A stretch of 53,803 nucleotides of DNA from the IMG/VR virus record IMGVR_UViG_3300027976_002493, positions 1 to 53,803 of that record. The stretch is one strand, 5' to 3'. Source of the DNA: a virus. Of this stretch, positions 8,425 to 52,094 are shown piece after piece. Both the position numbers and the translations under genes were made by a program. Under the pieces are notes generated by a model. It had not been told where the DNA came from and did no database searches. It worked only from the letters and a program-made list of their open reading frames with translations. Within the stretch, counting starts at the first letter, position 1. Each line of letters opens with the position of its first letter.

Positions 8425-9474
8425 ATGGCGAAGAAACAAAGTAAATCACTATCTGCAGCCGTATCCGCTGAGCTTAAAAAAGGCTTTGATTTAGAGAAAT
8501 TTAAAGATAGTAAGATGTTAAGTAAGAACGTCAGATTCAAGGACCAGAAATGGATACCTTTATCCCCAGCGTTTCAAGAAATAACCTCTATACCGGGTAT
8601 ACCGATGGGACATATAACTATGTTGAGAGGTCATTCCGACACCGGTAAAAGCACCGCATTACTAGAAGCAGCAATCTCTGCACAACAGGGAGGTATACTA
8701 CCTGTCTTTATCATTACAGAGATGAAATGGAACTGGGAACACGCCATACAAATGGGGTTACAGGTTGAAGAGTTAGTAGATGAGGATACAGGGGAAGTTT
8801 TAGACTACCAAGGATCTTTCATATATGTAGATAGGGAAACCGTAAACACCATAGAAGATGTAGCTAGTTTTATCTTAGATTTAATCGATGAGCAGAAGAA
8901 AGGAGCACTTCCTTATGACCTTCTATTCTTATGGGATTCCGTAGGATCTGTACCTTGCGAACTGTCAGTACGTTCAAATAAAAATAACAATGAATGGAAC
9001 GCAGGAGCAATGTCTACACAATTCGGAAACCAGGTAAATCAACGAATCGTAATGTCCAGGAAAGAGTCCTCTCCGTACACAAACTCATTAGTAGTAGTAA
9101 ACAAAGTATGGACAGCAAAACCAGAAATGCCAATGGGACAACCTAAGTTAGAGAATAAGGGAGGGAAAACCATGTGGTATGATGCCACCTTAATAATTAC
9201 GTTCGGGAACATATCTAATGCTGGAACTTCAAAGATTAAAGCAATCAAAAATGGTAAGCAAATAGAGTTCGCTAAGAGAACTAATCTACAGGTTGATAAG
9301 AATCACATCAACGGAATAACAACCCGGGGTAAAATTATCATGACACCTCATGGTTTCATTCTAGATGATGATAAGGCACTTAAGGACTATAAGGCAGATA
9401 ATCAAGAGAACTGGGAGAGAATTCTAGGAGGCGGAGACTTCGAGATAGTAGAGGAGTTAGAAGAAGGTATTTAG
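8425..9474 (+). CDS. uvsX: UvsX-like RecA-family recombinase
   Basis: A 349-residue protein of RecA/UvsX length. Walker A is GHSDTGKS at 69-76, Walker B is LLFLWDS at 166-172, and NSLVVVNKVW corresponds to the strand after the L1 loop. The acidic C-terminus (EIVEELEEGI) resembles UvsX. The protein forms filaments on ssDNA and drives strand exchange and recombination-primed replication. It sits directly behind the gp32-like gene and before a terminator at 9506. Confidence 0.9.
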   Translation: MAKKQSKSLSAAVSAELKKGFDLEKFKDSKMLSKNVRFKDQKWIPLSPAFQEITSIPGIPMGHITMLRGHSDTGKSTALLEAAISAQQGGILPVFIITEMKWNWEHAIQMGLQVEELVDEDTGEVLDYQGSFIYVDRETVNTIEDVASFILDLIDEQKKGALPYDLLFLWDSVGSVPCELSVRSNKNNNEWNAGAMSTQFGNQVNQRIVMSRKESSPYTNSLVVVNKVWTAKPEMPMGQPKLENKGGKTMWYDATLIITFGNISNAGTSKIKAIKNGKQIEFAKRTNLQVDKNHINGITTRGKIIMTPHGFILDDDKALKDYKADNQENWERILGGGDFEIVEELEEGI

Positions 9475-18892: not shown

Positions 18893-19810
18893 ATGAGTTT
18901 TAAAGACAATCAAGAAGCATTAATTGCTACAGCCAGTAAACATTTAGGTAAAGTAGGCGGAGCCGGGTATAGTGACCAGTACGACCCTGGGTTACTAGTA
19001 GCTATTCCTAGAAACCTAAACAGAGAAGGTTACGGAATCGAAGAAGATAAACTTCCTTTCGTAGGAAGCGACGTATGGAATGCATACGAAGTATCAGCCA
19101 TCACACTAAAAGGCAGGCCCGTAGTAGGTATGATGAAAATAGTATACTCTTCTAGTTCACCGTTACACGTAGAGTCAAAGTCTATAAAGCTATACCTAAA
19201 CTCCTTTAATATGACAAGGATGGGAGATACTGCTGTTGAATGTATTAGTAAGTTCGAGGAGAGAGTTGTAAGAGACCTATCGATATGTCTTAAGACAGAA
19301 GTAGAAGTGAAGTTCTTCTTTAACGATCTTAACTTTGAAGGAGATTTCGGAAGAGGTTATACAAACCTCGACCGGGTAGTAGACTTAGATAGCGTAGAAT
19401 TTAACGTATTCAAATCAGATGCAAAACAGTTAAAAAGTCTCGATGAAGAAGTCTCAGACAAGGTAATAAAAATACAATCTAATCTCTTAAGATCTAATTG
19501 TAGAGTGACTAATCAGCCAGATTTTGGAGATGTCTACATCCACATGGAAGGAGTAAAAGAGCCGGATTATGCATCAATTGCAAAGTATATAGTATCACAC
19601 CGTCAAGTCTCCCATTTCCATGAGGAGATCGTAGAGATGGTATTCACACACCTTCATAAAGCATATCAACCGGACAAGTTGATGGTATGTGCATTGTATA
19701 CGAGAAGAGGCGGGTTGGATATTAACCCTATAAGAGCTACGCATCAAGATATGATACCAACAGAATTTGTAGGAGTAGAGTTTAGAAACAAAAAGACTCT
19801 TAGACAGTAA
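18893..19810 (+). CDS. queF: NADPH-dependent preQ0 reductase QueF
   Basis: A 305-residue bimodular QueF (E. coli type is about 280). ESKSIKLYLNSFNMTRMG at 94-111 is the NADPH/substrate signature, SNCRVTNQPDFGD at 201-213 carries the catalytic C203 and D210, FHEE at 242-245 holds the conserved His-Glu, and YTRRGGLDINPIR near 269-281 is the final family block. All catalytic residues are present. It reduces the nitrile of preQ0 to the aminomethyl group of preQ1 using two NADPH. In a phage that also has DpdA this predicts a dPreQ1-type DNA modification rather than dPreQ0. It has its own promoter. Confidence 0.93.
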   Translation: MSFKDNQEALIATASKHLGKVGGAGYSDQYDPGLLVAIPRNLNREGYGIEEDKLPFVGSDVWNAYEVSAITLKGRPVVGMMKIVYSSSSPLHVESKSIKLYLNSFNMTRMGDTAVECISKFEERVVRDLSICLKTEVEVKFFFNDLNFEGDFGRGYTNLDRVVDLDSVEFNVFKSDAKQLKSLDEEVSDKVIKIQSNLLRSNCRVTNQPDFGDVYIHMEGVKEPDYASIAKYIVSHRQVSHFHEEIVEMVFTHLHKAYQPDKLMVCALYTRRGGLDINPIRATHQDMIPTEFVGVEFRNKKTLRQ

Positions 19811-21083: not shown

Positions 21084-21992
21084 ATGCAATTAGAAATGAA
21101 TTTTAACAAAGAAAAACACGTAGTACTATCACTTTCAGGTGGTTTGGATTCAAGTACATTATTACTAAGATGCTTGAAAGAGTATGACAGCGTAACTGCT
21201 ATATCATTTGATTATGGTCAAAAACATAGGGTTGAATTAGATAGAGCTCAATCGTTAGTTGATTATATTAACAATGGGGTTGTAGATAACAGAGGTGCTA
21301 ATCCTTACCCTAACATTAAATACAAACAAATTAAATTAGATGGTTTAGCAGAACTACTTAACTCCACATTAGTAACAGGAGGAGAGGATGTACCTGAAGG
21401 ACATTATAAAGGAGATAACATGAAAGCAACAGTTGTGCCAAATAGAAATAAAATATTCTCATCCATAACTCAAGCAATAGCATTATCAGTAGTAGGTAAG
21501 ACAGGTGGAACTTGTGATATCGCTTTAGGTATCCACGCAGGTGACCATGACATATACCCGGACTGTAGGCAAGATTTCAGAGACGCTGATGTGAAAGCAT
21601 TTAGAGTAGGTAATTGGGATTCGGAGAAAGTAGGATTTTACACACCCTATCTTGAGGGAGATAAATTCACAATTTTACAAGATGGAGAAGTGCTATGTAA
21701 GGAATTAGGATTAGATTTTGATGAAGTTTATAAAAGAACAATGACATCTTACAAGCCTATATGCATACCGGAAAAACCCTCGAACTTACTAGATGAATTA
21801 GTTTGGAGAAACAATCACGAATGGTTCTCAGACCATAAATCTGCAAGCTCAGTTGAAAGGATAGAAGCTTTTATAAAACTAGGTAGGAAAGACCCAGCAC
21901 CTTATGCAGATGAATCCGGTGAAGTGGATTGGGAATACGTAGAAGCAGAAACCCGAAAAACAATCAACGATTTCCACGCTAAACAAAATTAG
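21084..21992 (+). CDS. queC: 7-cyano-7-deazaguanine (preQ0) synthase QueC, zinc-site variant
   Basis: A 302-residue PP-loop ATPase. LSGGLDSST at 17-25 is the pyrophosphate loop, SFDYGQKHRVEL near 38-49 and VPNRNKIFSSITQAIA near 117-132 are QueC signatures, and GIHAGDHDIYPDCRQDF near 150-166 is the substrate block. It converts CDG with ammonia and ATP to preQ0. The C-terminal zinc motif CGxCxxC of ordinary QueC is missing: the aligned segment reads DHKSASSVERIEAF. Whether zinc is dispensable or substituted is unknown. T-rich codons differ from flanking genes. Confidence 0.9.
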   Translation: MQLEMNFNKEKHVVLSLSGGLDSSTLLLRCLKEYDSVTAISFDYGQKHRVELDRAQSLVDYINNGVVDNRGANPYPNIKYKQIKLDGLAELLNSTLVTGGEDVPEGHYKGDNMKATVVPNRNKIFSSITQAIALSVVGKTGGTCDIALGIHAGDHDIYPDCRQDFRDADVKAFRVGNWDSEKVGFYTPYLEGDKFTILQDGEVLCKELGLDFDEVYKRTMTSYKPICIPEKPSNLLDELVWRNNHEWFSDHKSASSVERIEAFIKLGRKDPAPYADESGEVDWEYVEAETRKTINDFHAKQN

Positions 21993-22562: not shown

Positions 22563-22709
22563 ATGGGAGAGGAAGATGATTGGGAAATGTCCGAACCTAA
22601 AGACGGTTTCACAGAAGAAGAAGAGAGGATCGTATATAAGATGATGCAGAATATGCCAGTAGAGGATTTAAAAAAGATAATCAAAAATAACAAAGCAAAG
22701 AAGGTATGA
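22563..22709 (+). CDS. Small acidic protein upstream of queE
   Basis: A 48-residue frame from ATG 22563 to TGA 22709 that overlaps the queE ATG by 4 bases. The product is acidic in the first half (MGEEDDWEMSEP) and ends in a lysine-rich helix. The overlap and matching codon style support real, coupled translation. Function unknown. Confidence 0.55.
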   Translation: MGEEDDWEMSEPKDGFTEEEERIVYKMMQNMPVEDLKKIIKNNKAKKV

Positions 22710-23542
22710 AAATAAATTTAGTAGAGAATGGGATTTTCCCAATTAAAGGACAATTAACAAAAGATTCTACCGGCTATTCCGTACCGGGTACCTTCCAAGG
22801 AGAAGGTAAACTTACAGGAACCCCTTGCCTATTTGTAAGAACCTCAGGATGTAACTTAAGATGTTCTTGGGTTGGTCTAGATGGGAACGGCTCTCCTTGT
22901 GATACACCTTACTCCTCTCATAACCCAGAAAAGAATAAGATGGAGATTGATGACATAGTAAAAACTGTAATTGATAATACTTCAGAACAGAATATTAGGT
23001 ATGTTGTAGTTAGTGGAGGAGAGCCAACAATACAACATAAGGGTTTAGCAGAACTATTGCAAAAATTAAGAGCCCTAGGTTTACATACAACTATAGAAAC
23101 TAATGCTACTATCTATACAGATGAAATAGCTAAACACACTAGTCTAGTTTCAATGTCACCTAAACTCTCAAGTTCAACACCTTGGGTTAAAAATTTAAAA
23201 AATACAGGTATTGAGTATAATTTAAAATGGGCGGATAAGCACGAACTAACTAGGATTAATATAGAAGCAATGCAAAGCTATATTGACGCTAAAAAGATAT
23301 ATGGGAATGATTTTCAACTAAAATTCGTAGTTTTAGGTGATGATGATGTTGTAGAAATTGAAGAAATACTTACACAGCTAACAGGATGGGACCCTTCAGA
23401 CATATGCCTAATGCCAGAAGGTGTTGATGTAGATACACTGAATGAGAGAACTAAATGGGCTAGTGAAGAGGCTCTTAAAAGAGGGTGGAGGTTTACTCCG
23501 AGACTGCATATCATGATGTTCGGTAAAAATCGACTAGTTTAA
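22706..23542 (+). CDS. queE: 7-carboxy-7-deazaguanine synthase QueE (radical SAM)
   Basis: A 278-residue radical SAM enzyme. VPGTFQGEGKLTGTPCLFVR at 26-45 is the QueE N-terminal signature, the cluster cysteines are C49, C53 and C65, followed by CDTPYSSH, and VVVSGGEPTIQ near 110-120 binds SAM. QueE rearranges carboxy-tetrahydropterin (from QueD) to CDG. The usual C-x3-C-x2-C is expanded: nine extra residues sit between the second and third cysteines. The gene begins inside the end of the upstream small gene, and the 3' part uses T-rich codons like queC. Confidence 0.9.
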   Translation: MKINLVENGIFPIKGQLTKDSTGYSVPGTFQGEGKLTGTPCLFVRTSGCNLRCSWVGLDGNGSPCDTPYSSHNPEKNKMEIDDIVKTVIDNTSEQNIRYVVVSGGEPTIQHKGLAELLQKLRALGLHTTIETNATIYTDEIAKHTSLVSMSPKLSSSTPWVKNLKNTGIEYNLKWADKHELTRINIEAMQSYIDAKKIYGNDFQLKFVVLGDDDVVEIEEILTQLTGWDPSDICLMPEGVDVDTLNERTKWASEEALKRGWRFTPRLHIMMFGKNRLV

Positions 23543-23566: not shown

Positions 23567-23722
23567 ATGAGTAAAGCACTTGAATTACTATCAGAGATAA
23601 GGGAAAACATAAACACCTGCTGCGCTATAACAATGGAACCAGAAGAAGTACTAACACTCATAGATGAGCTACAAGCTATACTAGAAACGAAAGAAAATCC
23701 GGAAACAAAATGCAAGAGTTGA
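23567..23722 (+). CDS. Small protein overlapping the HPRT start
   Basis: A 51-residue frame from ATG 23567 to TGA 23722, overlapping the next gene by 13 bases. The product is a helical acidic protein with a Cys-Cys pair (INTCCAIT). Position and overlap are typical of the small genes in this phage, but no family is recognised. Confidence 0.5.
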   Translation: MSKALELLSEIRENINTCCAITMEPEEVLTLIDELQAILETKENPETKCKS

Positions 23723-24240
23723 TTAAGCGAAAGGATATAGACCTTAAAACTAAAATACTCGCTAAACAAATAGCAGACGAACATAGGGGTGATAAAACAC
23801 CAGTCGTGATGGTCGGCCTACTCAACGGATGCTTTATGTTTTACTCAGACCTTGTACGTGCAATGGATATCGATATTGAATGTGACTTCATGAGAGTTAA
23901 GTCCTATGTAAGTAAGCGGAAACAGGGGGATATCCAAATTACGAAAGATTTAGAGACTGCAGTAAAGGGTAAACACATATACCTTGTAGATGATATCTAC
24001 GACACGGGCAATACTATGAAAGCAGTATCAGAGTACCTACAAGTTAAAAAACCAGCATCCATAAACATCGTAACGTTAGTTAAGAGGTTGAAAAGTGAAT
24101 GGGACCCGCTCAACACAGAAACAAGCTCTATTAGAAATTTTACCTGGGGATTTACTATTAAAGATGAGTGGATTGTAGGAATGGGATGTGATGATGAACA
24201 TGGACACAGTCGAAACCTCTCCTCTATATTTTCACTATAA
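23710..24240 (+). CDS. hpt: Hypoxanthine-guanine phosphoribosyltransferase
   Basis: A 176-residue protein of normal HPRT length. LLNGCFMFYSDLVRAM near 37-52 is the pyrophosphate loop region, the mid-domain contains FMRVKSY and a basic loop, and HIYLVDDIYDTGNTM near 89-103 is the PRPP-binding motif. IVGMGCDD near 155-162 matches the purine-binding end. It converts hypoxanthine or guanine plus PRPP to IMP or GMP. In this phage it could recover guanine released when DpdA exchanges bases in DNA, feeding GTP to FolE; that link is inference. Confidence 0.88.
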   Translation: MQELIKRKDIDLKTKILAKQIADEHRGDKTPVVMVGLLNGCFMFYSDLVRAMDIDIECDFMRVKSYVSKRKQGDIQITKDLETAVKGKHIYLVDDIYDTGNTMKAVSEYLQVKKPASINIVTLVKRLKSEWDPLNTETSSIRNFTWGFTIKDEWIVGMGCDDEHGHSRNLSSIFSL

Positions 24241-31866: not shown

Positions 31867-33309
31867 ATGGAAAAACAAAGTTATATTAAAAAAGAGGATA
31901 GGAAGAAGATACTCCTACTCTGTGATGACATACGCGCTCATTCCGGGGTAGCTCACATGGGTAGAGAGATAGTAACAGAGACCTGTCATCGGTATAATTG
32001 GGTAAATGTTGGAGGTTCGGTAAAACATCCGGAGGCAGGTCAGAGGTTCGATGTATCCGGTGATACTAATACTAGGGCAGGTATAGATGATTCGTCTGTC
32101 TTTATTTATCCGATAACGGGGTACGGGTCACCGGAATTTCTTCGTGCTTTACTGGTCAATGAGAAGCCGGATGCAATATTCATCATTACTGATCCTAGGT
32201 ATTGGATGTGGTTGTTTGACATGGAGGCAGAGATTAGAAAGCATGTTCCTATTATATACTTAAATATATGGGATAACTACCCTGCACCTCTTTACAATAA
32301 GACCTTCTATGAAAGTTGTGATGCACTTCTAGGCATTTCTAAACAGACTGTTAACATTAACAAGTTAGTCTTAGCAGACAAAGGGGATAACAAAGTCATT
32401 GAATACATTCCACACGGTGTTAGTGAACAGACATTCTATCCATTAACTGTAAGTGAGAAACAACAGGAGGATTATACTTCTTTTGTCACTAAGTTAAAGC
32501 AGGGTAAGGATATAGATTTTGTAGTACTTTTCAATTCGCGTAACATTAGACGTAAGCAGATACCGGATACTATATTAGCTTTTAAACATTTCGTGGACCG
32601 TCTACCAGAACCGGCTAAGAAAAAAGCCATGTTACTATTACATACCCAGGAGGTAGATGCTAACGGTACTGATTTACCGGTTGTTATTGACTTATTAACT
32701 CCTCAATCACAGGGTTATAATGTACACTTTACACCTGGGCCTCTAGAGGTTAAGGAGATGAATTACCTTTATAATCTTGCAGATACTACTATACTGCTAT
32801 CCTCTAACGAAGGTTGGGGATTGGCATTGACTGAATCTATGTTAACCGGTACACCTTTTATTGCTAATGTAACAGGAGGTATGCAGGATCAGATGAGATT
32901 TATTAAGGATGGTAAGTGGATGGAGTTAGATGCTGAGTTTCCTTCTAACCATAACAAGACTGTTACGGAGTGTGGTAGGTGGGCATTTCCGGTATATCCA
33001 ACCTCTATATCACTGGTAGGTTCTCCTACTACTCCTTATATATGGGATGATCGTTGCGATCCAATGCATGCTGCAGATAGGTTAAATGAGATTTACAACC
33101 TATCGATTGAAGAGAGAGTATCAAGGGGAATGGAAGGCTGTGAATGGGCCACTGGTCCGGAGGCTGGTTTTACTTCAACTACTATGGGTTGGAGAGTAGT
33201 TGAGGGGGTAGATAGGCTGTTTCGAGAATGGAAACCTAGAGAGAATTTTGAATTGATCCTGGCCGGAGAGGTAGAGGACGGAGCTGTTAAGCATAAACTA
33301 ATTTATTAA
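31867..33309 (+). CDS. Glycosyltransferase, GT-B fold (GT4-like)
   Basis: A 480-residue GT-B glycosyltransferase. SGVAHMGREI near 27-36 is the N-terminal acceptor-side loop, YIPHGVSE near 179-186 the linker region, and SSNEGWGLALTESMLTGTPFIA near 317-338 the E-x7-E nucleotide-sugar motif of GT4. Codons are T-rich (ggt, gat, ttt) compared with flanking genes, hinting at separate acquisition. The acceptor is unknown: modified DNA, a virion protein or a host surface glycan are options. Confidence 0.82.
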   Translation: MEKQSYIKKEDRKKILLLCDDIRAHSGVAHMGREIVTETCHRYNWVNVGGSVKHPEAGQRFDVSGDTNTRAGIDDSSVFIYPITGYGSPEFLRALLVNEKPDAIFIITDPRYWMWLFDMEAEIRKHVPIIYLNIWDNYPAPLYNKTFYESCDALLGISKQTVNINKLVLADKGDNKVIEYIPHGVSEQTFYPLTVSEKQQEDYTSFVTKLKQGKDIDFVVLFNSRNIRRKQIPDTILAFKHFVDRLPEPAKKKAMLLLHTQEVDANGTDLPVVIDLLTPQSQGYNVHFTPGPLEVKEMNYLYNLADTTILLSSNEGWGLALTESMLTGTPFIANVTGGMQDQMRFIKDGKWMELDAEFPSNHNKTVTECGRWAFPVYPTSISLVGSPTTPYIWDDRCDPMHAADRLNEIYNLSIEERVSRGMEGCEWATGPEAGFTSTTMGWRVVEGVDRLFREWKPRENFELILAGEVEDGAVKHKLIY

Positions 33310-33315
33310 AGTATA

Positions 33316-34620
33316 ATGAAAAAATCAAGACCCACGTTTTACATAAGTTGCCCGGTTTCGACCTACAGCGGATATGGAGCTAGATCAAGAGACCTAATAA
33401 GTGCTCTAATTGACATCGATAAGTATGATATCAAGATTGTACCTCAAAAGTGGGGCTCTACCCCTTGGGGATTTATAGAAGCTAACCCGGAATGGATGCC
33501 TCTTAAAGATTTGTTCGTAAGCCAGATCACGGAGAAGCCGGATATATGGTGCCAAGTTACTATACCAAGTGAATTTAATCCCATCGGAAAATTTAATATT
33601 GGGTTTACTGCCGGTATAGAGTCTACTGTATGCTCACCTGATTGGGTAGAGGGTTTGAATAGAATGGATGTAAACTTTGTATCCTCTCAACACTCAAAAG
33701 ATATATTTAAAAGTTTAAGGTTTGAAAAGAAGCATAATCAAACCCAACAAGTCGTAGAGGTAGTAGAAGTTAAAAAGCCTGTTGAAGTGCTTTTCGAAGG
33801 GGTAGACACCGATACGTACAGGATGAAGAGCGATGTGCCTGACGACTTCCTAAACCTAGGAGACATTAAGGAGGACTTCGTCTTCCTACACTGCGGTATG
33901 TGGTTAGAAGGTATAATGGGGGAAGATAGAAAGAATATAGGTCTAACTGTAAAAGCTTTCTATGAAACCTTTAAAAATAAATCAAAGAAACCAGCGTTAC
34001 TATTAAAGGTCTCTGCAGGCAGTAGCTCTTATATGAGTAGGGATAAGGTGTTAGCTAAGATAGCAGCGGTTAAGAAGACAGTTAAGTCAAAGAACTTACC
34101 TAATGTCTACCTATTAAATGGAGACCTTACCGATGAGGAAATGAATAACTTATATAACCACCCTAAAGTAAAAGCTATGATTAGTTTAACTAAGGGAGAA
34201 GGGTTCGGTAGACCGTTACTAGAGTTTACTACATCACAGAAACCACTTATAACAACTAACTGGTCCGGACAACTAGATTATCTTAACCCAGAGTTTACTA
34301 CATTACTTAAAGGAGAGTTAACCCCTATACACCCTTCAGCAGCTAATCAATGGTTACTAAAAGAAGGTCAATGGTTTAGTGTTGACTTCATGCAAGCCGG
34401 GGGATACTTCAGAGATGTCTTCGAAAATTATAAAAAGTATAAAACAATGGCTAAGCGACAATCTTACATATCAACAAATCAATTCAGTTGGAATAAGATG
34501 AAAGAGTTATTAGAGCAGAGATTAGAAGAACTTATACCGGAGTTCTCTCAAAAGGTAGAATTAAAGCTACCGACACTTAAGATGCCTAAGCTAGAATTAC
34601 CGAAATTAAAGAAAATATGA
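33316..34620 (+). CDS. Glycosyltransferase, GT-B fold (GT4-like)
   Basis: A 434-residue protein starting 6 bases after the previous gene. STYSGYGARSRDL near 16-28 is the N-terminal glycine loop, PVEVLFEGVDTD near 156-167 the hinge, and TKGEGFGRPLLEFTTSQKPLI near 294-314 the C-terminal nucleotide-sugar motif. The last 25 residues are a repeated Leu-Lys-Pro tail. It pairs with the preceding glycosyltransferase; the two may act on the same acceptor in sequence. Confidence 0.82.
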   Translation: MKKSRPTFYISCPVSTYSGYGARSRDLISALIDIDKYDIKIVPQKWGSTPWGFIEANPEWMPLKDLFVSQITEKPDIWCQVTIPSEFNPIGKFNIGFTAGIESTVCSPDWVEGLNRMDVNFVSSQHSKDIFKSLRFEKKHNQTQQVVEVVEVKKPVEVLFEGVDTDTYRMKSDVPDDFLNLGDIKEDFVFLHCGMWLEGIMGEDRKNIGLTVKAFYETFKNKSKKPALLLKVSAGSSSYMSRDKVLAKIAAVKKTVKSKNLPNVYLLNGDLTDEEMNNLYNHPKVKAMISLTKGEGFGRPLLEFTTSQKPLITTNWSGQLDYLNPEFTTLLKGELTPIHPSAANQWLLKEGQWFSVDFMQAGGYFRDVFENYKKYKTMAKRQSYISTNQFSWNKMKELLEQRLEELIPEFSQKVELKLPTLKMPKLELPKLKKI

Positions 34621-35102
34621 TAATAGACGATAAAGATTCACTTGGAATATGCACCCGGTGTAAAGGAGATGCCTGCTACACTCAACGAGTCACAGCAGAT
34701 GTAGTTATTAGACAGTGTCTGAGCTGCGGATTTCAAACCACTTCTATAATGATAGTAGGGAATGAATTCTACGATCTACAAATGGAATCCTTACCTGAAC
34801 TATATAAAGACTTAATGTGGACAGATCCTGAAACAAGGGAGATATGGATGCCACAAACGGTAAATCTACCTCAAAAAGGTATGGTTTTCGCAAACGGACC
34901 TAGCAAAGACAACTGGAAATGGTCAGCAGTTAAGGCTGTACCGGTTACTGAAGAGGATAAAAAGAAATACCCTATCCCCGGAAAGAAAGATCAATACTAT
35001 GAATTTAGAATGGATATGACGACACGTAAGGATTTTGAAGAAAAGGATTTTATTGAAGGCTTAGACCATATTGGAATATTTCAGCAAGCAGTAGTTGCCT
35101 AA
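34617..35102 (+). CDS. Zinc-ribbon protein of unknown function in the glycosyltransferase operon
   Basis: A 161-residue protein overlapping the upstream gene by 4 bases. Residues 12-38 form a zinc ribbon: C-x2-C (CTRC) and C-x2-C (CLSC). The rest is acidic with a conserved-looking YPIPGKKDQYYEFRMD block. It resembles small proteins found beside glycosyltransferases in marine T4-like phages, but no activity is known to me. The promoter of the next operon begins inside its final codons. Confidence 0.65.
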   Translation: MIIDDKDSLGICTRCKGDACYTQRVTADVVIRQCLSCGFQTTSIMIVGNEFYDLQMESLPELYKDLMWTDPETREIWMPQTVNLPQKGMVFANGPSKDNWKWSAVKAVPVTEEDKKKYPIPGKKDQYYEFRMDMTTRKDFEEKDFIEGLDHIGIFQQAVVA

Positions 35103-35127
35103 ACGAGATAAAGTTCATATATTATAG
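35095..35127 (+). promoter_or_regulatory. Promoter of the second glycosyltransferase operon, -33 inside the upstream gene
   Basis: TTG at 35095-35097 lies in the last codons of the zinc-ribbon gene; 20-base spacer; TATATTATAG at 35118-35127. ATG at 35130 makes the mRNA leaderless. Confidence 0.72.
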
Positions 35128-35129
35128 TT

Positions 35130-35783
35130 ATGGAAATAAGTTATGCTATCACAGTAAAGGATGAGATTGAGGAAATAAGCAACCTTATACCTTTCCTGCT
35201 TAAACATAAACAAGCTGGGGATGAAGTGGTTGTTCTCTACGATAATATGAATGGATCGCCTGAAGTAGAGTGGTTTTTAAGAACTTCTTCAATTAACAAC
35301 CCTGGACTTAGGTGGCACAATTACCCGTTTGACGGTCATTTTGATAGATTTAAAAACCACCTTACGGCTTTATGCAAAGGAGACTTCGTTATAAATATTG
35401 ATGCAGATGAAATACCCACAGAGGTATTTATGGAGAATATAAACAAGATACTGGAAAGCAATAATGTAGATATGATAAGAGTTCCTAGGATCAACACGGT
35501 CAAAGGTCTAACTGAGGAACATATCCAAAAATGGGGTTGGTCTGTTAACGAGAGGGGATGGGTAAACTTCCCCGATTTACAGAGTCGCATATACGCTAAT
35601 AACGGAAAGATAAGGTGGAAGAATAAAGTACATGAGGTTCTAGAAGGTTACTTGCAGGAAAGTACACTCCCTCTCACAGAGGAATACGCCTTTATACATA
35701 ATAAGACTATAGGTAGACAAGAGAAGCAGAATAGATTTTACGCTAAGATTGAAACCAATGGTAGAGTGAAGTACAAAGTATGA
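35130..35783 (+). CDS. Glycosyltransferase family 2-like
   Basis: A 217-residue GT-A protein. The N-terminal ISYAITVKDE strand, the GDEVVVLYDN strand and FVINIDADEIP near 86-96 (the D-x-D metal site) mark a GT2-type transferase; W-x-x-KVHE near 167-173 is a typical end block. It is shorter than most GT2 enzymes. First gene of a six-gene operon with 4-base overlaps. Confidence 0.8.
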   Translation: MEISYAITVKDEIEEISNLIPFLLKHKQAGDEVVVLYDNMNGSPEVEWFLRTSSINNPGLRWHNYPFDGHFDRFKNHLTALCKGDFVINIDADEIPTEVFMENINKILESNNVDMIRVPRINTVKGLTEEHIQKWGWSVNERGWVNFPDLQSRIYANNGKIRWKNKVHEVLEGYLQESTLPLTEEYAFIHNKTIGRQEKQNRFYAKIETNGRVKYKV

Positions 35784-36562
35784 TACTAACAGTAATAATT
35801 CCTACATATAAAGAACCAGAATACCTAGACCTATGCTTAGAATCAGCTATAAAAGGTCAAGTGAACAAGAATGAAATTATAGTTGTAGTAGATGGTTTTT
35901 ACGAATTAAATAAACCCATTCTAGACAAGTATAAAGACAATATACAAGTATTGAATCTTGAAGCAAACCAAGGACTATCAGTAGCAACCAATTGGGGAGT
36001 GTATAATGCAACATCAGACTACATTTTAGTTGTGAATGATGATAATGTATTCCCTTCAAAATGGGACCACCACTTAACTCCTCACCTAAGAAAAGGAAGT
36101 GTTGTTACCCCTAACGAAATGGAACCCGGTCCTTCTATGTTTAAACAGAAACATATTAAAAATTTAGGACAGCACCCTAGAGAATTTAGTTTAGAGTCCT
36201 TTTGGAAATATGAAGAATCCATCCAAACCACATCCCCTGACTTAACAGGTTCTACTTTGCCTTTTGCTATGTACAAAGCTGATTATTTAGCTGTTGGAGG
36301 ATGGGATATTATGTACCCTTCCCCTCACGTAGTAGATTGGGATTTCTTTTTAAAATGTGAATACTTCGGGATGGAGATGGTTCGCATCTATAAACACTTT
36401 TACCATTTCTGTGGAGCTGCCACCCGTCAAACACTAGAGCAAAGTAATGAATCATCTAGAAAAGAAACATTAGCACATGAATTTTTTGCAGGAAAGTGGG
36501 GACAGTATGCTGAACATAATACTATTAGTAATTCAAAGATGATAAAAATACTTAAAAATTAA
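35780..36562 (+). CDS. Glycosyltransferase family 2
   Basis: A 260-residue GT2 enzyme. LTVIIPTYKEPEYLDLCLES near 3-22 is the classic GT2 start, NQGLSVATNWGVYNA near 64-78 the donor region, and YILVVNDDNVFP near 80-92 the D-x-D-like metal site (DDN). WDIMYP and VDWDFFLKCE near 175-195 match the acceptor block. T-rich codons differ from the genes after it. Overlaps the previous gene by 4 bases. Confidence 0.85.
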   Translation: MILTVIIPTYKEPEYLDLCLESAIKGQVNKNEIIVVVDGFYELNKPILDKYKDNIQVLNLEANQGLSVATNWGVYNATSDYILVVNDDNVFPSKWDHHLTPHLRKGSVVTPNEMEPGPSMFKQKHIKNLGQHPREFSLESFWKYEESIQTTSPDLTGSTLPFAMYKADYLAVGGWDIMYPSPHVVDWDFFLKCEYFGMEMVRIYKHFYHFCGAATRQTLEQSNESSRKETLAHEFFAGKWGQYAEHNTISNSKMIKILKN

Positions 36563-36567
36563 TAACC

Positions 36568-37206
36568 ATGGCTAACGGAATCTATAAAATAACTGAAGAA
36601 TTTGAAGGGGAATTATCTAAATATACAGGAGCTCCTTATGTTATAACAGTGGATAATATGAGTAATGCTTTGTTCTTAGCTTTAATGTATGAGAATATAA
36701 AAAACCAGGAGGTTACAATCCCCAACAGGACATATCCAAGTGTACCTTGTGAAATCATTCATGCAGGAGGAAAGGTTAATTTCGAAAAAGTAAGAGGTAG
36801 TACGTTGACAGGGGCTTACCAACTTAAACCAACTAACGTATATGACTCTGCTTTGAGATTCACAGCGGATATGTACATACCTAAGACGCACATGTGTATA
36901 TCGTTTACTGGGCCGTATAAGCATTTTAAATTATCAAAAGGTGGAGCGATACTGACCGATAACCACGAAGCATACCTATGGTTTAAAAGAGCTAGATACT
37001 CAGGTCGTAGGGAGTGTTCATACCACGATGATAATTTAGATATGTTAGGTTGGAACTTTTACATGATGCCTGAGTTAGCAGCTAGAGGCTTACTACTAAT
37101 GGGACAGTTCTACGATACAAACGGACATAAGAAGAGTAACCCCGACCTAACATTACCATACCCAGACCTGTCTAAATTTAACGTCTATAGTAAAGCAAAC
37201 AGATGA
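36568..37206 (+). CDS. Truncated sugar aminotransferase-like protein (DegT/DnrJ/EryC1 family)
   Basis: A 212-residue protein with the N-terminal part of the PLP aminotransferase fold: YVITVDNMSNALFLAL near 20-35, VTIPNRTYPSVPCEIIHAGG near 46-65, and CISFTGPYKHFKLSKGGAIL near 109-128, where a lysine would bind PLP. Members usually have 360-400 residues, so most of the small domain is absent. The frame is clean and overlaps the next gene by 4 bases, so it is probably a real shortened enzyme, not a pseudogene. Substrate might be a keto-sugar nucleotide. Confidence 0.7.
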   Translation: MANGIYKITEEFEGELSKYTGAPYVITVDNMSNALFLALMYENIKNQEVTIPNRTYPSVPCEIIHAGGKVNFEKVRGSTLTGAYQLKPTNVYDSALRFTADMYIPKTHMCISFTGPYKHFKLSKGGAILTDNHEAYLWFKRARYSGRRECSYHDDNLDMLGWNFYMMPELAARGLLLMGQFYDTNGHKKSNPDLTLPYPDLSKFNVYSKANR

Positions 37207-37802
37207 AAAGAGCATTAATAGGAGCAGGCGGATTCGCTAGAGAGGTTAAGGCACATATGTTAGATCACACAATGGAGTGTTTTGTGGATGATGTTTACTG
37301 GGACGGTAGTGACGAGTACATCCTACCCCTATCTCGCTTTAATCCCGGTGATTATAAGGTGTTCGTTGCTGTAGGAGACCCCAAAGCAAGGCGTAAGATG
37401 ATACAAAGCTTACCGGAGAATACGGAATATTTTAGTTTTGTACATCCTTCTGCTCAACTTCTCGGCAATGACATAAACATTGGTGAAGGTAGTTTTGTAT
37501 GTGCCGGCTGTATATTAACTACCAATGTTAATATAGGTAAGCACGCTCATCTAAACCTATACACAACAATAGGCCATGATTGTAAGATAGGAGATTTCTT
37601 CACGACAGCACCTGGTGCTAAGGTATCCGGCAACTGTTCTATCGGAGATTGCGTCTACGTAGGTACAAACGCTTCGGTAAAAGAGAAGGTAAAAATACAC
37701 TCTCATGTTATAGTAGGACTTAACGCAGGAGTGGTGAAGGACATAGTAACACCGGGAATTTACATAGGGACACCTGCAGAAAATTTAATAGTAGTAAAAT
37801 GA
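37203..37802 (+). CDS. NeuD/PglD-like sugar O/N-acyltransferase (left-handed beta helix)
   Basis: A 199-residue protein. Residues 1-75 contain the NeuD/PglD N-terminal domain (LIGAGGFAREV and VFVAVGDPKARRKM), and 80-195 consist of hexapeptide repeats (INIGEGSFVCAGCILTTNVN, GKHAHLNLYTTIGHDCKIGD) ending in IYIGTPAENL. H at LNLYTTIGHDC is the likely catalytic base. The family acetylates amino sugars or sialic acid. With the aminotransferase-like gene before it, it suggests formation of an N-acylated amino sugar. Confidence 0.85.
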   Translation: MKRALIGAGGFAREVKAHMLDHTMECFVDDVYWDGSDEYILPLSRFNPGDYKVFVAVGDPKARRKMIQSLPENTEYFSFVHPSAQLLGNDINIGEGSFVCAGCILTTNVNIGKHAHLNLYTTIGHDCKIGDFFTTAPGAKVSGNCSIGDCVYVGTNASVKEKVKIHSHVIVGLNAGVVKDIVTPGIYIGTPAENLIVVK

Positions 37803-38707
37803 ATAGTAAACCTGCCGATTTTAAGATAAACTTTATAGTGTATTCTCAATTTCCCCAATACATGGATTACATAGGATCCCCTATAGTATGCCACTCCTTA
37901 GCTAATAACCTTAAAACATTAGGGGAGAATTCATACATATATGCTAATCAAACACATCCGAAATTTTCAACAACATGTATACCGTGGGGAACAGATATTA
38001 TATACGATGAAGAAAACACAGTACTAGTAATGCCTGCAGGAGCAGGGGAACATACATTTGAATATCTAATACCAGATAACATAAGAAGTATTCCGAATGT
38101 AGTTAGACTAATGGTAAATCACCAGGTAAAACCATACCCCCCGTCTGATAAAGTCTATGAGTTATTCCCCTACTTTAGTACTTTATCAAACACCAACATA
38201 GACGGTAAACTACCTAACCTCTACATTGATCTTGAAGTATTCTACGACAGAGGACTACCTAGAGAAGGTTCTTGCTACCTAGTTAAAGGAGGTCATGATG
38301 ATAACTGGGGGTTAGAGACAGAGAAGTACCACACAGTCGATGACTTATGCTTAGATAACTATTGGGCATATGATGGAGATCGTATGGAGTATTTAGCTGA
38401 GGTCTTTAATAAAAAGGAATCCTTTGTAACATATAATGCTCAAACAGGGATGTCAATTTTAGCAGCTTTATGCGGCTGTAGATCGATTGTAATACCTAAA
38501 CCTTCTATTAAGAAAGAACATTGGCTCGCTAAGTTCGAATCAATGAAATACGGTATAGCGTTCGGGGTAGAAGACATGCAAAGAGCTGAAGAGACTTTAC
38601 ACCTGTTAAGACCTCATATAGAACACCAGTTAAATATGTACCTCGACAGGCAGCAGATATTCATTGATGACTGTTATACGTGGATGAGAGATAAATACAA
38701 ACTATGA
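37799..38707 (+). CDS. Glycosyltransferase-like protein (GT-B type)
   Basis: A 302-residue protein overlapping its neighbours by 4 bases on both sides. DYIGSPIVCHSLANNLKTLGEN near 21-42 fits the N-terminal loop of GT-B enzymes, and TYNAQTGMSILAALCGCRSIVIPKP near 212-236 the C-terminal donor-binding region. No D-x-D motif. Similar phage proteins sit in glycosyltransferase clusters. Activity not certain. Confidence 0.65.
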   Translation: MNSKPADFKINFIVYSQFPQYMDYIGSPIVCHSLANNLKTLGENSYIYANQTHPKFSTTCIPWGTDIIYDEENTVLVMPAGAGEHTFEYLIPDNIRSIPNVVRLMVNHQVKPYPPSDKVYELFPYFSTLSNTNIDGKLPNLYIDLEVFYDRGLPREGSCYLVKGGHDDNWGLETEKYHTVDDLCLDNYWAYDGDRMEYLAEVFNKKESFVTYNAQTGMSILAALCGCRSIVIPKPSIKKEHWLAKFESMKYGIAFGVEDMQRAEETLHLLRPHIEHQLNMYLDRQQIFIDDCYTWMRDKYKL

Positions 38708-39378
38708 AAATACACATATACTACAGGCACTACAACGTAAATGACTCAGATGGGCCGAAAAGGCCAAAGGGGTTTGATTACGAGAAATGCTTTTTAAACC
38801 TGCTAGAAACACTTAAAGGTACTTCAAACTACATACTTAATGTAGTTTTTGACGGTAACCCGGACAACAATTGGATCACTAAATACAGCAGCCATTACAC
38901 TCTACACACTATTCAAGAGGGAAGTGATGCAGGGTCTTATTTTAAGACAGCTGACATTATTAAAAATAATAAACTCGTCAAGACGGGTGATTTGATCTAT
39001 TTCTTAGAAAACGACTATCTACATGTTGATGGATGGTTAGGTAAAGTTGAAGAATTATTCACAACTTACAACGGGTTAGATTACGTATCTCTATACGACC
39101 ATAAAGATAAATACTTCCTACCAATGTACGATAACCTAGTCTCTAAGATATTCATTACAGACTCACATCATTGGAGATCAACACCATCTACCTGCGGTTC
39201 TTTTACTATTACTAAGGAGAGATTCGATGAGGATTATGACATTCTGTCTACAGTGAGAGGTGACCATAATAAATTCCTATGGTTAAATAAGAACAGAGGA
39301 AGGTCAGTAGTATCACCAATACCCGGCCTGTCGACCCACTGTATGGAAGGTTTAATGTCCCCTACACTAGAATGGTGA
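38704..39378 (+). CDS. Glycosyltransferase-like protein (GT-A type)
   Basis: A 224-residue protein, last of the operon. IHIYYRHYNVND opens a Rossmann-like strand, GSDAGSYFKTADI near 75-87 and LIYFLENDYLHVDGW near 97-111 give an E-N-D variant of the metal site, and STCGSFTITKERF near 160-172 the acceptor block. Consistent with a small GT-A transferase; the variant D-x-D makes the exact class uncertain. Confidence 0.68.
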   Translation: MKIHIYYRHYNVNDSDGPKRPKGFDYEKCFLNLLETLKGTSNYILNVVFDGNPDNNWITKYSSHYTLHTIQEGSDAGSYFKTADIIKNNKLVKTGDLIYFLENDYLHVDGWLGKVEELFTTYNGLDYVSLYDHKDKYFLPMYDNLVSKIFITDSHHWRSTPSTCGSFTITKERFDEDYDILSTVRGDHNKFLWLNKNRGRSVVSPIPGLSTHCMEGLMSPTLEW

Positions 39379-42547: not shown

Positions 42548-43018
42548 ATGGGAAAGTTTCAATCAAGTAAAGTATTCGACGGTTTTAGTACAGTATTCCG
42601 TCAGTGGAGAGCAGTGGATACACACTGTTCAAGAATTCATGGATATGGCGTTTCATTTAAAGTATACTTTGAAGGTGAATTAGATGATCGTAACTGGGTT
42701 TTTGATTTTGGAGGTATGAAAAGAGCCAAATGTTTAATAGACGGTATGCAACCTAAAGTATGGATGGACTATATGTTCGACCACACTCATATCGTAGCAG
42801 AAGATGACCCGTACCTGGAAGAATTCCTTAAGCTAAATGACTTAGGAGTTTCCCAAGTCAGAGTAATTCCTAGAACAGGAGCTGAGAGTTTTGCAGAGTT
42901 TATCTTTAAGAAGCTTAATCCTTTCGTAAAAGAAGAAACTAAAGATAGAATCAGAGTAACTAAAGTTACGTTTATGGAGCATGGTAAGAACGCTGCATCA
43001 TACCAGGAAATAGTTTAG
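42548..43018 (+). CDS. queD: 6-carboxytetrahydropterin synthase QueD
   Basis: A 156-residue QueD/PTPS-fold enzyme. VFRQWRAVDTHCSRIHGYG at 16-34 holds catalytic C27 and zinc ligand H31; the usual HGH is HGY here, as in the known HGY-type subfamily. WVFDFGGMKRAK near 50-61, MFDHTHIVAEDD near 76-87 and the C-terminal VTFMEHGKNAASY with its glutamate complete the family. It converts dihydroneopterin triphosphate from FolE into the QueE substrate. It lies 20 kb from queC/queE but all pathway genes are present. Confidence 0.88.
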   Translation: MGKFQSSKVFDGFSTVFRQWRAVDTHCSRIHGYGVSFKVYFEGELDDRNWVFDFGGMKRAKCLIDGMQPKVWMDYMFDHTHIVAEDDPYLEEFLKLNDLGVSQVRVIPRTGAESFAEFIFKKLNPFVKEETKDRIRVTKVTFMEHGKNAASYQEIV

Positions 43019-46113: not shown

Positions 46114-46821
46114 ATGAAAAGGTTTATAACAGGAACTGAATTAGTTCAGGCGGGCTTTGCTAACGGAATATCTACTCAATTAGCTGCCAAGCAATTGAAA
46201 GATGGACCAGAGGCAAGGTTAACAGTGGAGGAGAAGGAAGAGATAATAGTCGAAGCTTCTGAGCATTTTGGTAGGTTCTTAACCTCGCTAGGTGTAGATT
46301 GGGAGAAAGACCCGAACTCATCAGACACCCCAATGAGGGTATCTAAAGCATATATGGAAAAGTGGAAAGGTAGGTTCGACCCGTTAGATAAGGTGACATC
46401 ATTCCCTTCCGATGGATACTCAGGCATAGTACAGGAGTCGAATATACCCCTTACATCTATGTGCTCTCACCACCACGAATCAATTAACGGAACTGTCAGT
46501 ATAGCTTACATTGCATCAGCAGACGGTAAAGTCGTAGGTCTATCTAAACTAAATAGAATTGTAGAGCAATTTGGCAGAAGGGGTCAAATACAAGAACAGT
46601 TAACAGTTGCTATACATAATGCCGTGGATAAGATATGTGAAGAGAATCTAGGAGTGGCCGTGCAAATAAACGCAACTCATAACTGTGTTAGTTGCAGAGG
46701 TGTTAAACACACAGGAGCATCAATGCAAACAGCAGTATTAACAGGAGCTTTTCTAGATGAAGATTCAACTAAAGCAGAGTTTTATAAAAATATTGAATTG
46801 GCGAGTATATACTGCCGATAG
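46114..46821 (+). CDS. folE: GTP cyclohydrolase I (FolE)
   Basis: A 235-residue enzyme of normal FolE length. C117 and H120 in MCSHHHES plus the C191/C194 region (HNCVSCRGVKH) form the zinc site; VVGLSKLNRIVEQFGRRGQIQEQLT near 140-164 is the GTP-binding core. It opens GTP to dihydroneopterin triphosphate, the first step to preQ0. It heads a unit that also contains dpdA, tying pathway entry to the DNA-modifying step. Confidence 0.92.
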   Translation: MKRFITGTELVQAGFANGISTQLAAKQLKDGPEARLTVEEKEEIIVEASEHFGRFLTSLGVDWEKDPNSSDTPMRVSKAYMEKWKGRFDPLDKVTSFPSDGYSGIVQESNIPLTSMCSHHHESINGTVSIAYIASADGKVVGLSKLNRIVEQFGRRGQIQEQLTVAIHNAVDKICEENLGVAVQINATHNCVSCRGVKHTGASMQTAVLTGAFLDEDSTKAEFYKNIELASIYCR

Positions 46822-47057: not shown

Positions 47058-47873
47058 ATGATAAATAGAATCCGCATAGCCCATGAGGCACCAATTTCAA
47101 TCTTTAAAGAAGTAGATAAGCTTACGGATTATTCCTACGCGTTAGTGAACCTGATGGAAGATCCCGAATACCTAGGTCTTTTTAAAGGTGTGATAGCGGA
47201 AGGGAGAGAGGTAATTTTAGATAATGCTATTTTCGAAACAGGTGAAGCATTCAAAGGAGAAGACTTTTACAAGTGGGTAAATGAACTTAAACCGGACTGG
47301 TATATAATACCGGACGTATTGGAGGATTGTCACGGGACTATTAGACAAGCCGAAGAGTGGTTGTTCGAATACAGCAGTAAGATACCAAAAGGTACTAGAT
47401 CAATAGGTGTCGTTCAAGGTAAGACCCTGGAGGAAATTATTACCTGCTACCGAGCACTAGATAGACTAGGTGTTGACATGATAGCAATATCATTCGACTA
47501 CTCTCTATATGAGAAGATGTGTCCTCACCCTAATCAAAAAGTAAGTTGGATGCTAGGAAGAGTGCAACTCCTAGGTATATTGTATCAGGAAGGAATCTTA
47601 AACTTAGATAAGCCACACCATCTTTTAGGAAATTCCTTGCCCGTTGAGGGGAAGTTTTACGGGAACTATGGTTTTATCTATTCTATGGATACATCAAACC
47701 CGGTTGTACACGGAATTAAAGGTATTAAATACCAGGAGAACTTCGGACTGTACCATAAAGAAAGTCAAAAGTTACATGAAATGATAAACTACCCAGAAGA
47801 GCAGATTGATATGGAGATAGTGGAGTATAATATAAAGGAGTTTAGAAAGTACTGGGCTGGGGAGAGTTTTTAA
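47058..47873 (+). CDS. dpdA: DNA guanine transglycosylase DpdA (phage type)
   Basis: A 271-residue TIM-barrel protein resembling phage DpdA (TGT superfamily). VILDNAIFETGEAF near 52-65 carries a conserved Asp and Glu, PDWYIIPDVLED near 79-90 lies at a barrel strand, SIGVVQGKTLEEII near 115-128 and VDMIAISFDYS near 139-149 follow, and SMDTSNPVVHG near 209-219 holds a conserved Asp. There is no tRNA-binding zinc domain of bacterial TGT, as expected for the DNA enzyme. It would replace guanine in DNA with preQ1 or preQ0. The exact catalytic Asp is not assigned. Confidence 0.82.
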   Translation: MINRIRIAHEAPISIFKEVDKLTDYSYALVNLMEDPEYLGLFKGVIAEGREVILDNAIFETGEAFKGEDFYKWVNELKPDWYIIPDVLEDCHGTIRQAEEWLFEYSSKIPKGTRSIGVVQGKTLEEIITCYRALDRLGVDMIAISFDYSLYEKMCPHPNQKVSWMLGRVQLLGILYQEGILNLDKPHHLLGNSLPVEGKFYGNYGFIYSMDTSNPVVHGIKGIKYQENFGLYHKESQKLHEMINYPEEQIDMEIVEYNIKEFRKYWAGESF

Positions 47874-48487: not shown

Positions 48488-48517
48488 AAAGAGCTGCTCG
48501 AAAGAGTGGCTCTTTTT
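48488..48517 (+). terminator. Strong rho-independent terminator with GAAA loop
   Basis: AAAGAGC (48488-48494) pairs with GCTCTTT (48509-48515); inside, TG/TG wobble pairs and CTC/GAG extend the stem to a GAAA tetraloop. A T-tract ends at 48517. It closes the folE-dpdA-H1 region. Confidence 0.88.
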
Positions 48518-48519
48518 AG

Positions 48520-48551
48520 TTGCTTAAGTAGTATATCTTACTTATCTTTAA
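48520..48551 (+). promoter_or_regulatory. Promoter for the P-loop kinase gene
   Basis: TTG at 48520-48522 immediately after the terminator T-tract, 20-base spacer, TATCTTTAA at 48543-48551; ATG at 48554, leaderless. Confidence 0.78.
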
Positions 48552-48553
48552 TT

Positions 48554-49306
48554 ATGATAAAAAAAGAAAGGGTTATGCTCTGTGGAACCAGTAGTACAGG
48601 TAAGAGCACTGCTTCAGAGCTTCTAAAGAAAGAATTACCAAACTATACATTCATATCAGAGTCAACAAGGACTGTAAAGTCTTACGGTCTAGAGATAAAC
48701 GAAGAGGGTGGTGAAGCGACACAGTTGGCAATTGCCTGCTTCCACTTAGAAGCGCTACTGAGCGAAGATAATTTAATTCTCGATAGAGGCTTCCTAGACT
48801 TAATAGTCTACTCAAGACTATTACCTAATCTTAACCCAGACGTATTAGCTTACATAGAAGATATGTGGAGACGGATTGCTCCCCAGTACACTAAGATATG
48901 TTACTTCCCTATAGAGTTTAGAAGTACTGATGACGGGGTAAGATCTTTATCAGATGCTTGGAGAGAGGAAGTGGATAGAGAATTCCGTAGGGAGTTAAGG
49001 AGAGTGGATGTAGAGTATATGACGGTGAGGGGTTCAAAAGAAGAGAGGGTAACGAAAATTAAAAATTATATAATGAACAAGGAAGAAGTTTTAGAAGAGG
49101 AGGTAGTAGTGGAGGATCCGTTTTTAAGTTTGTATGACTTTTTAGGTTATGCTGCAGGGTTGGTGAGGGGTAGAGAAGTACTGCTAGCGGCACAAGTACA
49201 GGGGGTAAGTTACCGAACCAGGCAGGTGTCAACGAAGACGTATAAAGGACCAGTCACACTCTACCCTAAATCTTTTTTAAACCAATATTTCAATACAACT
49301 AAATAG
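48554..49306 (+). CDS. P-loop nucleoside/nucleotide kinase-like ATPase (AAA_28/NadR type)
   Basis: I start at ATG 48554 (250 residues); an upstream GTG at 48506 would lie in the terminator. CGTSSTGKST at 10-19 is Walker A, FISESTR near 36-42 the family's substrate strand, and NLILDRGFLDLIVYSR near 76-91 the D-R-G block, as in AAA_28 and NadR-type kinases. Residues 180-250 are a C-terminal extension rich in Glu and Val with no known match. It might phosphorylate a nucleoside or a modified base nucleotide; the substrate cannot be told. Confidence 0.75.
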   Translation: MIKKERVMLCGTSSTGKSTASELLKKELPNYTFISESTRTVKSYGLEINEEGGEATQLAIACFHLEALLSEDNLILDRGFLDLIVYSRLLPNLNPDVLAYIEDMWRRIAPQYTKICYFPIEFRSTDDGVRSLSDAWREEVDREFRRELRRVDVEYMTVRGSKEERVTKIKNYIMNKEEVLEEEVVVEDPFLSLYDFLGYAAGLVRGREVLLAAQVQGVSYRTRQVSTKTYKGPVTLYPKSFLNQYFNTTK

Positions 49307-50747: not shown

Positions 50748-51545
50748 ATGATAGATTTAAAAAACCAAACACCACTAACCTTGGAGCAAATCGCTAAAGC
50801 AGCTCCAGCAGTTGTGGAGCAGCATGCTTCACCTAGAGTTTCTAAACACTACATCCACATTCCAACGACAAGAATACTTGACGACATGGAGAAATTAGGA
50901 TGGAGAGCCATAGGAGTAGATCAACAGAAATCAGGAGATTTAAGTAAAGATCGATTTGCAAAGCATCTCATTGCTTTTAGGAATGAGAATGTAGTACTTC
51001 GGACAGAGGATGGAGAGACTGTATGGCCTCAAGTGTTGATTCAAAACTCCCATAACGCTTTAGGAGCTTTTTCGTTCAACGCAGGCTTACATAGATTGGC
51101 TTGTAGTAATGGACTAGTAGTATCTACTAAGAGTTTCGGAGCACTTCGAATCAGACATAGAGGATACTCCTTTGAAGAGTTACAGGTTACAATAATGAAA
51201 ATGATGGAAGAATTACCAGGCACAGTGGAGGTATTGAATCGATTTAGAGAGGTTCAACTAACCGAAGAGCAAAAGATAGAATTTGCTTTAAGTGCTATGG
51301 GTATACGTTTTGCAGGAGATGAAGCAGCTGTAGAGGCTAAGCTACTACTTGCTCCTTTAAGGGAAGCTGATAAGGGTAGTAGTCTCTGGGCAACTTACAA
51401 TGTACTGCAGGAGAAAGTAATAAAAGGCAACTTTACATACACGACACCTGACGGTAAATCAAGAACAGCTAAACCGATAATAGCATTTCAGAGAAGCATA
51501 AAGATGAATAAGGAACTATACGCTTTAGCAGAGCAATACACATAG
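50748..51545 (+). CDS. DUF932 family protein
   Basis: A 265-residue protein of the DUF932/phage-plasmid (TIGR03299-like) family: SKHYIHIPTTRILDDMEKLGW near 32-52, FNAGLHRLACSNGLVVS near 109-125 and IRHRGYSFEEL near 134-144. These occur on many phages and plasmids; function is not established. It ends 3 bases before the formyltransferase gene and shares its promoter. Confidence 0.8.
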   Translation: MIDLKNQTPLTLEQIAKAAPAVVEQHASPRVSKHYIHIPTTRILDDMEKLGWRAIGVDQQKSGDLSKDRFAKHLIAFRNENVVLRTEDGETVWPQVLIQNSHNALGAFSFNAGLHRLACSNGLVVSTKSFGALRIRHRGYSFEELQVTIMKMMEELPGTVEVLNRFREVQLTEEQKIEFALSAMGIRFAGDEAAVEAKLLLAPLREADKGSSLWATYNVLQEKVIKGNFTYTTPDGKSRTAKPIIAFQRSIKMNKELYALAEQYT

Positions 51546-51548
51546 GGT

Positions 51549-52094
51549 ATGAAGAAACTTAAAAGCAATTGGATAGCTTTATTCTCCCAAACCGGATCCG
51601 AAATAGCCTCTATATCAGAGGCTCTCGGCCGTTGGCCGGATAAGATTATAACGAACTACCGCCCATCAGGAAGGAGAACCATCAGCCCTAAACTAACCGG
51701 AAAGAAGATCACATACGTGAAGAATAAACCAGCAGCAAGTGATTACTTTGAGGTATTGGAAGATGAAAACAACTTTATAACCTTACACGGGTGGTTACGT
51801 ATTATACCCCACGAAGTTATCCTTAAATACCCTAACATTTTAAACGGTCATCCAGGCATGCTTCCACTACTAGCCGGAAAGGACCCACAAGAGAAAGCAT
51901 TCTCCTTGAATCTAGATGTCTCAGCTTGTGTTATACACAGGGTCACAGTGGGAGTGGATGAAGGACCTATCTTAAAGGAGAGACTGGTGCATATAAAGGA
52001 TTTGAATTTAGAAGAGGTATACCAGAAACTTCATAAAAACTCTATAGAACTATGGGTGAGTTATCTTCAAAGTTTAGACCTTTTAGTTGCTTAA
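51549..52094 (+). CDS. Formyltransferase (PurN-like fold), candidate dPreQ1 formyltransferase
   Basis: A 181-residue hydrolase-type formyltransferase. LHGWLRIIPHEVI near 79-91 leads to NGHPGMLPLLAG at 99-110, which carries catalytic N99 and H101, and RVTVGVDEGPIL near 131-142 has D137; this is the N-H-D triad of 10-formyl-THF formyltransferases. It is close in length to PurN (about 200) but the phosphate-binding N-terminal loop (SQTGSEIAS) differs. In a phage with QueF and DpdA the best candidate role is formylation of the aminomethyl group of dPreQ1 (an enzyme predicted as DpdN in other phages). GAR or sugar formylation are alternatives. Confidence 0.8.
   Translation: MKKLKSNWIALFSQTGSEIASISEALGRWPDKIITNYRPSGRRTISPKLTGKKITYVKNKPAASDYFEVLEDENNFITLHGWLRIIPHEVILKYPNILNGHPGMLPLLAGKDPQEKAFSLNLDVSACVIHRVTVGVDEGPILKERLVHIKDLNLEEVYQKLHKNSIELWVSYLQSLDLLVA

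Follow-up and report, generated by a model that had tools for sequence, protein, structure and literature searches.

The locus considered here raises the question of which substrate is formylated by a PurN-like enzyme that a virus encodes alongside genes for deazaguanine synthesis. The gene, FMT, lies at one end of a 53,803-base virus record, the whole of which is referred to as the window, and the original prediction was that its product formylates dPreQ1. The analysis supports this reading through the class of the enzyme, the loss of PurN substrate positions, the lack of visible purine genes and a near-obligate linkage to DpdA and QueF. We give a probability of roughly 83% to the proposal that FMT is a DpdN-type N-formyltransferase, which formylates the amine of preQ1 to give fdPreQ1 in phage DNA.

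In 2023, Cui et al. reportedly detected fdPreQ1 and predicted that DpdN formylates dPreQ1. In that prediction, DpdN would turn dPreQ1 into fdPreQ1 in phages that have both DpdA and QueF, which is the same step as that proposed for FMT; the putative equivalence of the two proteins is drawn from gene context. Most likely, the FMT step is one already proposed for related phages, seen here in uncultured phages that make up a large family; the present work adds a residue signature, a view of how broad the family is, matched operons with and without FMT, and a purine-gene control.

Deazaguanine Pathway Genes in the Window

The relevant features of the window are given below by coordinates, strand, and product; identities are to the counterparts in the closest isolate, Flavobacterium phage vB_FspM_immuto_2-6A (immuto).

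18893..19810, +, QueF, preQ0 to preQ1 nitrile reductase, source of the aminomethyl group (TIGR03138, 4.9e-76; PF14819)
21084..21992, +, QueC, preQ0 synthase (TIGR00364, 2.3e-33)
22706..23542, +, QueE, radical SAM 7-carboxy-7-deazaguanine synthase (TIGR03365, 7.6e-23)
23710..24240, +, HPRT-like phosphoribosyltransferase (TIGR01203, 2.9e-42, 144.3 of 150 bits)
42548..43018, +, QueD, 6-carboxytetrahydropterin synthase-like (TIGR03367, 4.1e-7, below cut-off; 66% identity)
46114..46821, +, FolE, GTP cyclohydrolase I (PF01227, 3.4e-42; TIGR00063, 2.3e-42)
47058..47873, +, DpdA, DNA-guanine transglycosylase (phrog_19058, 1.4e-35; 59% identity)
48506..49306, +, TMK/NadR-like P-loop kinase, a conserved neighbour (AAA_28, 4.8e-17)
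50748..51545, +, DUF932 protein (PF06067, 5.6e-22), 3 bases upstream of FMT
51549..52094, +, FMT, putative DpdN-type formyltransferase, 181 amino acids, ATG start (Pfam, alignments, AlphaFold2)

The presence of QueF and DpdA in one genome, as originally claimed, was confirmed. QueF scores 255.9 bits against TIGR03138, slightly below the cut-off of 293, and retains the catalytic Cys203 and Asp210. DpdA is of the kind carried by immuto, where it is annotated as DNA guanine transglycosylase, and by Campylobacter CP220-type phages. It has no Pfam match, and a profile search of PDB sequences returned no tRNA-guanine transglycosylase (TGT); its predicted structure did match the TGT fold (AlphaFold2 from a 40-sequence alignment, pLDDT 94.9), the top 50 PDB hits all being TGTs, and Asp86 and Asp211 are invariant in the 40 sequences. 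FolE, QueD, QueE, and QueC, which the earlier claim did not list, are also encoded, and with all six genes on one contig the steps that lead from GTP to preQ1 are represented, as is the insertion into DNA.

In the phage QueD family, the HGH motif reads HGY, with tyrosine for the second histidine, in 38 of 39 sequences, and the active-site cysteine is kept; judging from the sequences, it is possible that zinc ligation is altered.

Relationship of FMT to PurN

FMT is a single-domain protein that matches Pfam Formyl_trans_N (PF00551) above the cut-off (57.2 bits, E 2.4e-15), with no second such domain in the record. Its Asn99, His101, and Asp137 align with the catalytic Asn106, His108, and Asp144 of E. 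coli PurN, as expected of the PurN-like protein with an N-H-D triad that had been proposed. The AlphaFold2 model (pLDDT 90.7) has PurN as its nearest solved folds in the PDB, with TM values of about 0.74–0.79 and 18–24% identity. No informative phage match was obtained by Foldseek against viral models, and megablast of the window end against phage records gave no match. The family is marked by the motifs SQTGSEI (residues 13–19), NGHPG (99–103), and GKDPQ (110–114).

Fold and triad are shared with PurN, both that of E. coli (b2500) and the PRGA-formyltransferase of cyanophages, and the 10-formyl-THF site of PurN is probably present in FMT as well. The two nevertheless differ, at about 20% identity, in their substrate-loop and ribose-site positions and in their phylogenetic placement. 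Against the PurN equivalog TIGR00639, FMT scores 55.9 bits and does not reach the cut-off of 150.1. In a formyltransferase tree with long branches for Fmt, ArnA, and PurU, the family forms a clade of its own, apart from PurN, Fmt, ArnA, and PurU, with support of 100/100; the closest relatives of FMT belong to this separate phage clade, not to the functional formyltransferases of GAR or of sugars.

The triad is invariant in all 98 aligned family members, and a set of E. coli PurN residues is consistently replaced. Asn13 has become Glu and Ser110 Gly throughout (98/98 each), Leu118-His119 has become Lys-Asp (95/98 and 96/98), Glu173 is Ser in 92/98, and Gly9 is Gln in the family alignment. Two of the replaced residues, Asn13 of the substrate loop and Glu173 of the ribose site, are presumably GAR contacts in PurN. 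The N-terminal loop had been said to differ from that of GAR transformylase, and does so, reading SQTGSEI in FMT versus SGNGSN in PurN.

Unlike PurN, FMT has no purine genes nearby. The AIRS_C domain of purM and purL was absent from 15 FMT-bearing records, including the complete 160-kb immuto genome, whereas of three cyanophage records that have a true PurN, two contained it. The claim that no purine biosynthesis genes are visible was thus borne out by the lack of AIRS_C and the single Formyl_trans_N domain in the window, a 53.8-kb fragment as most of the relatives' contigs are fragments, and the same holds for immuto.

Linkage of FMT to Deazaguanine Genes

Single-sequence searches, with a Campylobacter DpdA and with the FMT of one relative (L007), gave few loci, whereas alignment-based searches gave hundreds. 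A profile scan of IMG/VR for FMT found 351 relatives on about 350 contigs, the best 80 of which were taken, and a scan for DpdA found at least 582 relatives and supplied further loci. The 100 FMT loci compared group at 70% identity into 33 clusters. All 33 have DpdA near FMT, and QueF is seen in 29; among the four clusters without QueF, the contigs of three stop 34–149 bases past FMT, and the fourth (L015) is only 13 kb long, while queF lies elsewhere in the window and in L002, to which L015 is most closely related. The common order is dpdA-FMT-kinase-queF on one strand, with frequent overlap of dpdA and FMT.

The immuto homolog of FMT, KNV73_gp204 (YP_010114479.1, 51% identity), shares the family motifs and lies in the order folE-...-dpdA-orf-FMT-kinase-queF; dpdA precedes it, the kinase and then queF follow, and queD, queE, and folE are located upstream. 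It differs in being annotated as a phosphoribosylglycinamide formyltransferase. The genes of the window, by comparison, are dispersed, with 32 kb between FMT and queF and a DUF932 gene ahead of FMT that is retained in the nearest relatives (L002, L003, and L015).

One contig binned as Rhodobacteraceae (L179) carries the entire cluster contiguously and is probably a phage contig.

Loci With and Without FMT

A dpdA-kinase-queF arrangement devoid of FMT was found at 58 loci, in 55 of which the gap between dpdA and queF is 483–571 bases, leaving space for the kinase only. Phages of this type share the preQ1 pathway and transglycosylase with the window, and with no formyltransferase their expected end product is dPreQ1. 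An example is vibrio phage 6E351A, a QueF-bearing phage whose DNA contains dPreQ1 (295 Da) at 15% of dG (PMC12028318); its relatives are not among the listed FMT matches. Campylobacter phages retain dpdA and the kinase, carry neither QueF nor FMT, and have been reported to contain dADG, a base that needs no preQ1 (PMC6884629).

IMG/VR contigs L097–L155, most of them short, form a group of compact dpdA-kinase-queF runs with no FMT, for which dPreQ1 is the predicted end product.

On the DpdA tree, the presence and absence of FMT requires about three changes, and the FMT-less clades are nested within FMT-bearing ones, suggesting that FMT has been lost. With so few changes and nested absences, DpdA seems not to depend on a formylated substrate, which favours, but does not prove, formylation after insertion.

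Proposed Pathway

In the pathway envisaged, FolE, QueD, QueE, and QueC would make preQ0, QueF would reduce it to preQ1, and DpdA would exchange guanine in phage DNA for preQ1. FMT, with its PurN fold and N-H-D triad, would then transfer a formyl group from 10-formyltetrahydrofolate to the primary amine of 7-aminomethyl-7-deazaguanine, and the capped product would be 2'-deoxy-7-(formylamino)methyl-7-deazaguanine (fdPreQ1). We infer both donor and acceptor, the preQ1 amine being assigned from gene context. Formylation following insertion into DNA is somewhat favoured over formylation of the free base or nucleotide. By analogy with other 7-deazaguanine phages, fdPreQ1 would likely benefit the phage by letting its DNA evade host restriction or modification-dependent nucleases.

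Such an assignment would provide a function for a family of phage genes, present on about 350 IMG/VR contigs, that has been misnamed as belonging to purine synthesis, and the presence or absence of FMT would predict which phages carry formylated and which bare aminomethyl-deazaguanine. Formylation would remove a positive charge from the major groove, which may affect host nucleases and polymerases, and the matched operons with and without FMT make this question of charge testable.

Alternative Explanations

The most serious competitor is a variant of the preferred explanation, with which its probability overlaps. Here, FMT would formylate preQ1 as a free base or within a nucleotide, ahead of its arrival in DNA, with the HPRT-like enzyme and the kinase handling the nucleotides. 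PurN itself takes a nucleotide of small size as its substrate, FMT consists of one 181-residue domain with no added nucleic-acid-binding domain, and the cluster has conserved genes for the HPRT-like enzyme and the kinase; moreover, an FMT relative in Microcoleus, in a genome that gave no DpdA match, adjoins genes for a phosphoribosyltransferase, a TMK-like kinase, and a DegT aminotransferase. However, DpdA, with its TGT fold, is found in all the phages and would be redundant under a nucleotide route, it apparently functions without need of a formylated base, as the roughly three changes on its tree indicate, and the kinase and HPRT could instead recycle the guanine that DpdA displaces. We regard formylation ahead of insertion as possible, although doubtful.

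Activities unconnected with deazaguanine are far less probable. That FMT is a phage GAR transformylase that raises host purine synthesis is implied by the immuto gene annotation and by the name of PHROG 9240, and PurN provides both the nearest folds and the best PDB sequence matches, but the role was set aside as very unlikely given the score far under the TIGR00639 cut-off, the replaced substrate-site positions, the separate clade, the absence of AIRS_C from the 15 records, and the location of FMT within a deazaguanine cluster. Sugar N-formylation for surface glycans, which would draw on the glycosyltransferases and partial DegT aminotransferase at 31.9–39.4 kb of the window and on weak matches to dTDP-sugar formyltransferases, appears less probable still and was likewise rejected: FMT reaches 22 bits against a cut-off of 238 for NF005755, is 12 kb from the glycan genes, and in relatives adjoins dpdA, the kinase, and queF. 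Least credible is a PurU-like formyl-THF deformylase altering folate pools during infection. A weak match of 38.9 bits speaks for it, but this misses the 286-bit cut-off, the N-terminal part of PurU is unaligned to a protein of only 181 residues, and FMT lies in a deazaguanine gene context; it too was discarded.

Companion Genes and Outlying Relatives

The preferred reading, a formyltransferase acting on the preQ1 amine, leaves the roles of the companion genes to be considered. Almost every relative has the P-loop kinase gene (AAA_28) after dpdA (e.g., L008, 12519–13043; L090, 6813–7355), even the Campylobacter phages that have neither QueF nor FMT, and this type of DpdA may require the kinase as a partner. 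The HPRT-like gene is likewise conserved alongside the deazaguanine genes (8881–9276 in the immuto locus, L008), and together with the kinase its product may recycle the guanine released by DpdA or act on the modified base.

Two relatives do not fit neatly with the formylation of dPreQ1. In a Microcoleus metagenome-assembled genome (L178, 4041–10537), the FMT relative is accompanied by a radical SAM protein and by the kinase, aminotransferase, and phosphoribosyltransferase mentioned above; the locus adjoins a XamI-type restriction-modification pair, the search for DpdA covered the genome and returned no match, and the locus may make a formylamino nucleotide. In a Clostridiales bin (L180), the order is dpdA-FMT-polA, and the locus has no QueF_N match. 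A rather improbable generalization is that FMT, the HPRT-like enzyme, and the P-loop kinase constitute a nucleotide-level module for formylated deazapurines, situated beside DpdA in phages and, in the restriction-linked cyanobacterial locus, with DegT substituting for QueF and DpdA missing, yielding a formylamino nucleotide.

The immuto gene annotated as a hydrolase ahead of dpdA (L008, 10320–10844) encodes a PRA-PH/MazG-like pyrophosphohydrolase that is kept in many clusters. In the window, positions 31867–39378 hold a run of glycosyltransferase genes, with a partial DegT aminotransferase (36568–37206) and a hexapeptide acyltransferase-like gene, which probably serves glycan modification.
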